Source: Thermoanaerobaculales bacterium (GTDB taxonomy: Bacteria > Acidobacteriota > Thermoanaerobaculia > Thermoanaerobaculales > Sulfomarinibacteraceae). From it: a stretch of 32,173 bases of DNA. The position numbers were made by a program, and so were the translations under genes. Below the pieces are notes generated by a model. That model was not told the origin of the DNA. It made no database searches and worked only from the letters and a program-made list of their open reading frames with translations. The number at the start of each line of letters is the position of its first letter. The stretch's first letter is position 1. The stretch covers positions 1-32,173 of the forward strand of contig JAIOSJ010000145.1 in assembly GCA_021107705.1 (NCBI GenBank), given 5' to 3'. Below are positions 7,029 through 22,284 of the stretch, in pieces.

Positions 7029-7883
7029 ATGACGGGGACCGAGTTCACGACCGTAAATCTTTGGATCGCAGAAGATCGCGAACCTAATTTGGCCGAAGTC
7101 CTTGGGTCTCATGCCACTCTCGGCTCGATGCTTGGATCGGTCTTTGAAGGTCGGGTCGAAGCGACGATCTACCTGGACTCCTCTCAGGAGCCGGTCATTC
7201 CCTCTCTGCTTCAGGATCTGGAAGGATTGGCCTGTTCTGAGTTAAGGGTCGGTACTCTTCCCGGCCAGGATTGGTTGAAGGCTTATCGTGAAAGGGTCAA
7301 ACCCTTCTCGTTGGGACGGACCTGGTGGATCGATCCCCACCCGCAGATGCCGAGTCAAGCTCCGAAAGGCCGTTTGAGGTTAGTGATCGAGCCCCGGATG
7401 GCCTTTGGAACAGGGTCCCACGAATCGACCCATCTCGTCCTTCTCGAACTCGAGGATGATCCACCGGAAGGGCTTTCGGTCATGGACATCGGCACCGGAT
7501 CGGGCATCCTGGCCCTCGCGGCGGAGCGACTGGGAGCGGTCAGAACGGTTGGGCTTGACATTGACCTCCAAGCCGTCATTGTGGCCCGACAGATCGTCGC
7601 GGACCAGGATTTCGCATGTTCGCCAGGATACCTGGCTGGTCCGCTGGCGGCCGTGGGCCGAGGTGAATTCAGCCTGGTTCTGTGCAATATGATCTCAGAG
7701 CATTTTCGGCCGTTGATCGCCGGCATCCGCAGGATCATGACTGCCGAAGGAACAGCGGTTTTCTCCGGGGTTCTCGCGAAGGAGGCCGAGGAGGTTTCCC
7801 TGGCCCTCGAAAAAGGGGGCTTGAGAGTCGAGAAAACCAGACATCTTCATGACTGGGTTGCGCTGAGGGTCCGTCGTGGCTAG
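7029..7883 (+). CDS. prmA: Ribosomal protein L11 methyltransferase
   Basis: RLVIEPRMAFGTGSHESTHL, VMDIGTGSGILALAAERLGA; placed after dnaJ as is common. Confidence 0.9.
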   Translation: MTGTEFTTVNLWIAEDREPNLAEVLGSHATLGSMLGSVFEGRVEATIYLDSSQEPVIPSLLQDLEGLACSELRVGTLPGQDWLKAYRERVKPFSLGRTWWIDPHPQMPSQAPKGRLRLVIEPRMAFGTGSHESTHLVLLELEDDPPEGLSVMDIGTGSGILALAAERLGAVRTVGLDIDLQAVIVARQIVADQDFACSPGYLAGPLAAVGRGEFSLVLCNMISEHFRPLIAGIRRIMTAEGTAVFSGVLAKEAEEVSLALEKGGLRVEKTRHLHDWVALRVRRG

Positions 7884-8058
7884 CCCGCATATCTCACCAG
7901 GTATCTACTGCGGGCGGCGTATGGCAGCCATCTGTCGTGCTTTTCGCAAATCGTTCTCCTCGAAGGAGCGCTACTCCAACTGCGTCGCCCGATTTCCGAA
8001 AAACTCAACACCTAACGACCCTTCGCAGCCCTCGTTACGAAAAGGGTGAGAGATGCGG
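7884..8058 (+). repeat. Dispersed inverted-end element, copy B (complete, about 175 bp)
   Basis: Left end CCCGCATATCTCACC starts 1 nt after the prmA stop; right end GGTGAGAGATGCGG contains the rsmE ATG. Core shared with copy E. Confidence 0.85.
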
Positions 8059-8772
8059 ACTGATCCGTGGTTGCTGGTGTCGCCGGGTTCCCTCAAGGTA
8101 GGGGTGGATATTCTATTGGATGAAGAGGAGGCGCGCCACGCTTCGGGAGTGCTTCGGTGTCGGGTGGGGGATCGCGTTGTGTTGGCCGATGGGGCAGGGG
8201 TTGTTGCCCATGCCGAATTCATCGAGTGCGCCCGGTCACGGGCCGTGGTGCGGATAACCGGTGTCGAGAGGACCGAAGAAACCACCGGCGGGGTTCAGCT
8301 TGTGTTGGCCGTTCTCCACACCAAGGCGATGGACTGGGCGGTTCAGAAGGCCGTGGAAGTCGGAGCACAGTCACTGTTTCCGGTTGTATGTGGGCGTTCC
8401 CAAGGGGATGTTCACGGCGCCGGGCGCCGTCTCGATCATTGGCGGCGAGTCTCGCGTCAGGCCCTCAAACAGTGTCACCGGCCATGGATGATGAAAGTAT
8501 TCGAGCCGGAGGACCTGGAAACGGCGATCGGTAGGATCGCTTCCGGCGTAGTCGCCGACCCTGAGGGAGGACAATTGGAGAGTCTTCCTCTCGAGGTGTG
8601 CCGAACTCTGCTTGTGGGTCCCGAGGGTGGCTTCACACCTCGAGAGATCATGAGACTGGACGAGACCGATTGGCTTCGGCTCAACCTCGGGCCTCATGTT
8701 CTGCGGGCCGAGACTGCCGCCATTGTCGGTGCTGCAATTCTCGGAATGAGGTTCGGCCGAAATTCGTCCTGA
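8053..8772 (+). CDS. rsmE: 16S rRNA (uracil(1498)-N(3))-methyltransferase RsmE
   Basis: EEARHASGVLRCRVGDRVVLADG, KAVEVGAQSLFPVVCGRS, LLVGPEGGFTPREI, LGPHVLRAETAAI. Confidence 0.93.
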   Translation: MRTDPWLLVSPGSLKVGVDILLDEEEARHASGVLRCRVGDRVVLADGAGVVAHAEFIECARSRAVVRITGVERTEETTGGVQLVLAVLHTKAMDWAVQKAVEVGAQSLFPVVCGRSQGDVHGAGRRLDHWRRVSRQALKQCHRPWMMKVFEPEDLETAIGRIASGVVADPEGGQLESLPLEVCRTLLVGPEGGFTPREIMRLDETDWLRLNLGPHVLRAETAAIVGAAILGMRFGRNSS

Positions 8773-8805
8773 CCGGCGGTGCTACACTCCCGCGCCATGG
8801 TTAAT

Positions 8806-9054
8806 CCCCATATCTCACCAGTTTTCTACTGCGGCCGGCGGTGTACTGCACCCAGTGTCGTTTTCTCGCTTCGGGATGCTCGCCGAGCCCACGCTGGCCC
8901 CTTCCGGGGCCTCGCGCCTTCGGCATGGCCGCCCTTTCGGGCGGTGCGCGAGGTCCCTACTGTCGAGTACAAGCCGCGCCCGATAATCGGGTCGAAAACA
9001 CCGCTGAGCACGGTGCCTCCCCGCCCTCGCGACGAAACCCGGTGAGAAATGGGG
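8806..9054 (+). repeat. Dispersed inverted-end element, copy C (complete, about 249 bp, distinct core)
   Basis: Left end CCCCATATCTCACC; right end GGTGAGAAATGGGG. Core contains additional small palindromes (GGCCCC-TTCC-GGGGCC, CCGCCC-TTTC-GGGCGG). Confidence 0.82.
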
Positions 9055-9843
9055 ACCATAACCGAATCTTGTTGGATTGACTCCCACGCTCACCTCACGA
9101 TGTTCGAGCCGGACGAAGTGGTTGCAACCTTGGATCGAGCGGCGGATGCAGGAGTCGTCGGCGTTCTGATTCCGGCGACGGGGCCGGACGACCTTGAGCG
9201 AACCCTGGCTCTTGGTCGAGAACACGGGTCACGAGTGTCGATCGCCGTCGGTACCCACCCTCACGATGCCTCCTCTTTGGATCGAGCGTCCAAGCAGAGG
9301 CTCACCAGAGTTTTGGATGAGCCCGGAGTGGTTGCTGTGGGGGAAATTGGTTTGGATTACCACTATATGAATTCGCCACGAGAAGACCAGCTTCAGGCCC
9401 TCGAGTGGCAACTGGATCTGGCCCTTGAGGCGAATCTTCCGGTTATTCTCCATAATCGCGATTCTTGGGAAGACCTGGAATCTCTGTTGGTTCGCCGTAC
9501 CGGTCTCCTCCGTGGCGTCTGTCATTCGTTTACGGAGGGACCCGATCGGGTTCGAAAGGTCATGAAACTCGGTTTGTATGTGGGTGTTTCCGGGATGGTG
9601 ACTTTTCGCCAGGCGCACAACATTCGGGAGATGGCTGCGGCGGTGGATATTGACCGCTTACTGGTCGAGACCGATAGTCCTTTTCTCGCCCCTGTGCCCC
9701 ACCGTGGGAAACGAAACGAACCTTCGTTTATCCCGTTCGTCGGCCGGGCAGTGGCACAGGAACTCGGTCTCTCGGTTGATGAAGTTGCCGCCGGAACCAC
9801 GGCGAATGTTGAACGTCTCTTTGGTTTTCGTCCGGAACTCTAA
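9049..9843 (+). CDS. tatD: TatD family metal-dependent hydrolase (DNase)
   Basis: WIDSHAHLTMFEPDEV, VGEIGLDYHY, LPVILHNRDS, LLVETDSPFLAPVPHRGKRNEP. Confidence 0.95.
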   Translation: MGTITESCWIDSHAHLTMFEPDEVVATLDRAADAGVVGVLIPATGPDDLERTLALGREHGSRVSIAVGTHPHDASSLDRASKQRLTRVLDEPGVVAVGEIGLDYHYMNSPREDQLQALEWQLDLALEANLPVILHNRDSWEDLESLLVRRTGLLRGVCHSFTEGPDRVRKVMKLGLYVGVSGMVTFRQAHNIREMAAAVDIDRLLVETDSPFLAPVPHRGKRNEPSFIPFVGRAVAQELGLSVDEVAAGTTANVERLFGFRPEL

Positions 9844-17746: not shown

Positions 17747-17922
17747 CCCGCGTTTCTCACCGGTTTTCTGCTCCGACCGCAGATCTGGCGCACTGCGTGG
17801 TCCTTTTCACGATTCGTCTCCTGCGACGTGCCGTTGAGTACGACTCGTCGCCTCATCGGTCAAAAACCCACGCTGCGCACCATCTTTGTGGTCTCGCGAC
17901 GAGACCCGGTGAGAAGTGCGGG
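17747..17922 (+). repeat. Dispersed inverted-end element, copy D (complete, about 176 bp)
   Basis: Left end CCCGCGTTTCTCACCGG; right end CCGGTGAGAAGTGCGGG. Core shared with copy A. Confidence 0.85.
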
Positions 17923-21891: not shown

Positions 21892-22284
21892 TCATTCCGT
21901 ATTCATCCTCTTCCACACCAGGCGTCCGGCGCGGGCCGTTTCTCCGTCGACGATCACCAGGAGGGGCCCGATGGTTGACCAATGGCCGTCCTTGTACTTG
22001 ACGTAGGCATTGATGATCTGGCCGAAGAGGGAAACGCCCGGGATATCGCTTCGATAGGCAATGTCGCCTACCGTTTCCAGCAGCTTAAAGAGACCGCCGA
22101 TCTTTCCCCGATGGTCCTTCGCATGGCAGCCATCTGTCGTGCTTTTCGCAAATTGTTCTCCTCGACGGAGTGCAACTACGACTGCGTCGCCCAATTTCCG
22201 AAAAACCCAACATCTAACTAACCTTCGCAGTCCTCGCGACGAAAACTGGTGAGAGGTGCGGGCAAAAGGATCGGGTTTCGCCAC
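21892..22284 (-). pseudogene. Chimeric ORF: gene 3' fragment fused to element copy E
   Basis: First ~55 aa read through copy E; the remainder (DHRGKIGGLFKLLETVGDIAYRSDIPGVSLFGQIINAYVKYKDGHWS...) looks protein-like but has no start of its own. Confidence 0.45.
22123..22262 (+). repeat. Dispersed inverted-end element, copy E (left end missing)
   Basis: ATGGCAGCCATCTGTCGTGCTTTTCGCAAAT..GACGAAAACTGGTGAGAGGTGCGGG; near-identical core to copy B (7921-8058). Confidence 0.83.

Follow-up and report, generated by a model that had tools for sequence, protein, structure and literature searches.

Does the rsmE gene of this Thermoanaerobaculales bacterium take its start codon from a mobile element? We analysed a window of 32,173 nt (the whole stretch of DNA under study), which belongs to a 4.32-Mb genome designated G000. 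Positions 8040–8060, aaaagggtgagagATGCGGac, contain both the rsmE ATG and the right end of a short repeated element, copy B. An earlier note had suggested that the element end acts as a portable ribosome-binding site plus start codon. This turned out to be the best reading of the genome-wide pattern, because the native starts of tatD and miaA appear to have been displaced and in further genes no alternative start is usable; translation itself is inferred. From sequence comparison we consider it very probable that the terminal inverted repeat (TIR) doubles as a translation-start cassette and supplies the start of rsmE, with ribosome use of the ATG at 8053, and of GGTGA as a Shine–Dalgarno (SD) sequence, being inferred.

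Copy B at the prmA–rsmE junction

The features discussed here are collected in Table 1. As the earlier note had it, the rsmE ORF begins at the ATG of the right TIR, and GGTGA ahead of it is an SD match, with a duplex energy of −10.2 kcal/mol when a universal 16S tail is assumed. The left TIR of copy B (CCGCATATCTCACC, 7885–7898) starts 1 nt past the prmA stop TAG (7881–7883), which itself lies inside the left target duplication, while the right TIR (GGTGAGAGATGCGG, 8045–8058) overlaps rsmE by 6 nt (ATG CGG). The further statement that copy B fills the gap between the two genes is thus correct on the left, but on the right the element runs 6 nt into rsmE instead of stopping at the start codon. 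Since an in-frame TGA stands directly before the ATG, the rsmE frame cannot start further upstream.

Table 1. Coordinates of the features found in the window
Feature	Positions	Strand	Basis or remark
Copy A, right part only, near contig edge	28..112	+	Right-end GTG opens only 11 codons
prmA (ribosomal protein L11 methyltransferase)	7029..7883	+	ORF; orthologues adjoin rsmE in relatives
Probable displaced native rsmE start, GTG GCT AGC	7876..7878	+	Joined flanks; frame open through copy B to TGA 8047–8049
Left target duplication CTAG (holds prmA TAG)	7880..7883	.	Family-wide YTAR duplication
Copy B, IS1380-type MITE, 174 nt	7885..8058	+	TIRs and BLAST matches
GGTGA, SD-like; its TGA (8047–8049) is the in-frame stop before rsmE	8045..8049	+	
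rsmE, 239 aa	8053..8772	+	ORF; PF20260 and PF04452; ATG CGG 8053–8058 is element sequence
Right target duplication CTGA	8060..8063	.	2/4 bases unlike left CTAG
Displaced native tatD promoter-like box and start, TACACT-N8-ATG	8783..8799	+	Same string before tatD ATG in G014 and G018
82-codon frame from displaced tatD ATG through copy C	8797..9045	+	Ends at TGA 9043–9045, 3 nt before new ATG
Copy C, 249-nt MITE variant	8806..9054	+	Left duplication TTAA 8801–8804
tatD	9049..9843	+	ATG GGG 9049–9054 is element sequence; PF01026 matched from residue 10
Copy D, between two minus-strand ORFs	17748..17921	+	Left end has ACG in place of RTG
Copy E, left end missing	22120..22261	+	Right-end GTG opens only 16 codons

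When the flanks of copy B are joined, they read GTG GCT GAT CCG TGG (MADPW), overlapping a prmA TGA, and the same arrangement is present in the genome G003 (ATGGCTGACCCCTGG). Most likely the element inserted into such an overlapping junction of the prmA stop and the rsmE start. The left duplication would have retained a stop for prmA, the native rsmE start (probably the GTG at 7876) would have been cut off, and the right end would have provided rsmE with a new SD and an in-frame ATG. Copy B is 90% identical to its nearest sibling copy, and by this measure the insertion does not look ancient. Two details count against a start cassette: the duplications of copy B differ at two of their four bases, and the right one of copy C is unmatched.

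Two repeats of other kinds were seen elsewhere in the window. A direct repeat array with 21-nt spacing (750–952), an imperfect coding tandem repeat, lies in a minus-strand ORF (284–1987), and an inverted repeat (208–286; 31-nt arms, 81% complementary, 17 nt apart) sits between copy A and the start of this repeat-bearing ORF region.

A family of IS1380-type MITEs

A BLAST search with copy B in the G000 genome gave 46 matches, itself included, and the TIR-end pattern GGTGAGARRTGSGG (up to one mismatch) occurred 229 times, compared with 11 for the reversed control. The retrieved regions hold 49 candidate paired copies, mostly 173–176 nt long, with variants of 225–249 nt; the copies were gathered by searches and region retrieval, so the coverage of ends is partial. 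The target duplication is a 4-bp YTAR. Its identity was scored only for the 30 pairs in which both flanks were YTAR, and 21 of them were identical (8.5 among shuffled pairs, maximum 16).

The same TIR and YTAR duplication surround intact IS1380 transposase genes in a gammaproteobacterial MAG (L192, 352–2083) and a spirochaete MAG (L212, 456–2213); the transposases match PF13701 (DDE_Tnp_1_4) with E-values of about 1e-147 and 1e-152. Because these ends bound full IS1380 transposase genes, we assign the window copies to IS1380-type MITEs. They are short, multicopy and without a transposase gene, as a MITE should be. Judged by its ends, the copy B family is a non-autonomous IS1380-type MITE, its mobility by an IS1380 transposase being inferred. 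No autonomous partner with these TIRs was found in the incomplete G000 assembly, where the sole PF13701 locus found (contig C388) lacks them. A MITE needs no autonomous partner in the same genome, as the partner may be lost. The C388 transposase is on a short contig beside sugar-transferase-like and acyl-carrier-like genes and possibly comes from another organism.

The strict end GGTGAGAARTGCGGGYTAR is present in 16 of 152 genomes of the class and, across many phyla, in at least 120 contig stretches. An Rfam search of the window gave no match at the gathering threshold. At two further loci (L061, 4424–4619, and the left flank of L077, 2397) the element is inserted beside another element's end, in tandem, at the duplicated target.

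Frame preference at the element ends

Read outward from either end, the TIR and the duplication together give GG-TGA-GAA-RTG-CGG-GYT-AR. The order is that of a cassette: the SD match GGTGA, within which lies an in-frame stop, is followed after a 3-nt spacer by a start codon, an Arg codon and target-site codons free of stops in that frame. The predicted duplex between GGTGA and the anti-SD (16S tail assumed) has a median of −9.1 kcal/mol at 117 RTG ends; only 10% of random RTG sites in the window reach this value. The YTAR duplication brings no stop into the RTG frame, while its TAR is always a stop in the +2 frame.

The ends could nevertheless fall beside gene starts at random, the in-frame cases being merely the third expected by chance and without functional meaning. 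The simple count of long runs agrees with this outside G000: it shows no bias in the sister genomes (10 vs 9) or in the sample from other phyla (5 vs 6). At 149 ends in G000, however, runs of at least 300 codons fell 19 times in the RTG frame, three times in the +1 frame and never in the +2 frame (19/22 in the RTG frame, one-sided p 0.0004). A codon-usage classifier, which is independent of run length, placed 13 of 21 same-strand coding ends of G000 in the RTG frame and 11 of 20 (p 0.038) in the sister genomes; pooled, 24/41 coding ends are in the RTG frame against an expected one-third (p about 0.0008). The classifier thresholds were set without tuning data, and some of its calls are not confirmed genes. 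The in-frame bias rests on G000 and on the classifier, since the simple count is even in sisters and other phyla. Even if frames were random, the in-frame genes would keep the element RTG as their only plausible start, and on balance we regard chance placement as unlikely.

Genes predicted to begin at element ends

By the sequence criterion for a start-supplying MITE end, a TIR that encodes the first residues of the neighbouring gene, rsmE, tatD, miaA and others qualify, initiation at that codon being inferred. A response regulator of the NtrC type begins at an element (MRARILVVDDS), with its receiver domain matched from residue 5. The miaA gene also begins there (VRATTSILVILGPTASGKS) and has no alternative start before codon 45. 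For an MMPL exporter that begins at the element RTG there is none within 50 codons, and for a PAS histidine kinase the next start is codon 44. A CysT-like permease and an ABC transporter also begin at the element RTG. The MMPL gene and the acyltransferase downstream of it form a second operon-like row with one element before each gene. Not every in-frame end is a gene start, because in some long frames an ordinary native ATG follows within a few codons, as in an epimerase (L081, 2744) and in the HSP70-like gene adjoining copy D.

Two proteins of the sister genomes, one prepilin-like (VRARRRQRGFSLLEAVTALAIFG) and one RelE/ParE-like, begin at an element end. Genes like those for PabC, ThyX, hydantoinase and Nudix proteins apparently begin at the TIR in other phyla; these last names were given by eye, without a profile search.

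The strongest evidence, comparative as it is, comes from the displaced starts of tatD and miaA, where the element seems to have inserted in the 5′ end of the gene and its own start to have replaced the native one. In G014 and G018, CTACACTCCCGCGCC-ATG precedes tatD. In the window this string lies to the left of copy C and is followed by G-TTAA and then by the element. Joining the flanks of copy C with one target copy gives MAITESCWIDS, of the same length as MTDTSVHWIDS of the relatives. The right duplication of copy C is CCAT, its match to the left TTAA having been lost. After the element ATG the next possible tatD start is codon 18. At miaA the displaced ATG GAC C|CTGC comes into frame on joining (MDPTTSILVILGPTASG), as does a displaced ATG of a third gene, in L093 (MASRDLLLAAS).

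Two side observations concern these genes. In the tatD family (window 8783–8799; L102, L103 and L104) a −10-like box (TACACT or a similar sequence) stands some 8 nt ahead of the ATG, as a leaderless mRNA would lead one to expect. Three MiaA-like genes are present in G000 (C254:18555–19481, C376:10871–11755 and C313:17828–18724), the second and third being only 32–34% identical to the first.

The rsmE start in relatives

Outside genus g9, the scorable family members have overlapping prmA and rsmE genes. Codons 5–6 of rsmE encode a PW motif, and its W (codon 6) is found in 20 of 21 family members. This bears on the possibility that rsmE is translated from a downstream codon, with the element ATG only incidental; the earlier note had named a downstream GTG start as a finding that would refute it. 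In-frame TTG/GTG candidates do exist (codon 7 or 9), the first being a TTG at codon 7. The PW motif is upstream of all of them and would be lost, and with comparable later starts TatD would lack its DSHAHL motif and MiaA its P-loop; a downstream start is therefore highly improbable.

A second objection that the note had foreseen, relatives with the same ATG context and no element, applies in part. In three genomes of the closest genus, g9, the prmA–rsmE gap ends in GGTGAGAR-ATG-AAR without an element body. One could suppose from this that the SD and ATG of rsmE are native and ancestral, and that the element inserted just upstream and merely resembles them. In G000, however, copy B is homologous to the other copies along its body and as far as ATGCGG, and the g9 genomes have AAR as codon 2 where G000 has CGG. 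The 11-mer GGTGAGARATG is rare in g9 (7–9 per genome), from which we infer that its chance occurrence at rsmE would be of the order of 1 in 1000. At the same point in G014 (a g9 genome), TTGA flanks the site left and right and a displaced ATG remains; joining the flanks gives MQIDPW, overlapping the prmA stop. With identical duplications and a displaced ATG kept, the G014 junction looks like a decayed copy. The context thus exists without an element body, but the rarity of the 11-mer and, in G014, the insertion marks suggest decay. A native start also cannot explain tatD and miaA, and we hold it to be quite improbable. From these comparisons the g9 junction looks like a decayed insertion whose end survives as a putative ribosome-binding site, and it may or may not share its origin with the insertion in G000. 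A likeness of the prmA 3′ end to the TIR in the genome G020 was judged coincidental, as it follows prmA codons that vary in other g9 genomes.

Open frames and predicted folding

No stop interrupts the frame of the displaced native start across the element at rsmE, tatD and miaA; it ends only 3 nt before the new start. Counting both orientations of 39 full-length copies, this frame is uninterrupted in 53 of 78, compared with 23 and 33 in the other frames and 17% in shuffled sequences. This is suggestive only, because the copies share ancestry. Translation that begins at the displaced start and runs to the terminal TGA may, we infer, be coupled to the new start. As a tentative extension, about which we remain doubtful, the MITE might act as a translational relay, so that its insertion into operons and gene starts does no harm: the target site keeps or supplies the upstream stop, a frame as long as the element leads ribosomes on to the terminal TGA, and translation restarts at the adjacent RTG. 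In this view the end could also persist once the element is gone, serving as a domesticated ribosome-binding site (as suggested at rsmE in g9).

In the predicted fold much of the SD is base-paired inside the element, which counts against the start-cassette reading. Freeing of the SD by a ribosome that masks the left arm was modelled; masking left the SD unfreed in copy B, so this simple unblocking is not supported there, and it is only partly supported for copy C.

Comparison with known systems

An insertion into the opening codons of a conserved gene would normally be expected to disrupt it. Ends that carry a stop, an SD and a start in the right order would explain the spread of the element through operons; such ends would also alter the N-termini of core proteins and be a natural source of new start sites. 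The idea is testable in culturable hosts, as the same TIR occurs in many phyla with genes apparently starting there.

The window copies share the TIR and YTAR duplication with the insertion sequences of the IS1380 family (PF13701), from which they differ in being 174–249 nt long and lacking a transposase. The Chunjie MITE of Geobacter uraniireducens, said to have been described by Chen et al. in 2008, reportedly sits in an operon and leaves the operon structure undisturbed; in this it is similar, and we know of no supply of start codons by it. Rickettsia palindromic elements and enterobacterial RU repeats are likewise small mobile repeats that add coding sequence, but by internal ORFs fused to proteins; an SD and start in the end are not described in the parts of the sources available to us (PMC10969869, PMC2759123). 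The terms start codon, ribosome and IS1380 do not occur in PMC10969869, a 2024 review of MITEs in prokaryotes.

In the open-licence literature nothing closer than MITEAba12 was found for a MITE or IS end acting as SD plus start, and an earlier report elsewhere is possible. According to the portion of the source available, the TIR of this element of Acinetobacter/Moraxellaceae, read outward, gives the first four residues (MQQS) at three loci (PMC6382973). As in G000, a MITE TIR there encodes the start of neighbouring genes. MITEAba12 is, however, another element, with three loci only and start codons in some frames of its ends, and that portion describes no SD, in-frame stop or displaced native start (PMC6382973). 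Against this small precedent, what appears new here is the scale, the involvement of core genes and the built-in series of stop, SD and start.
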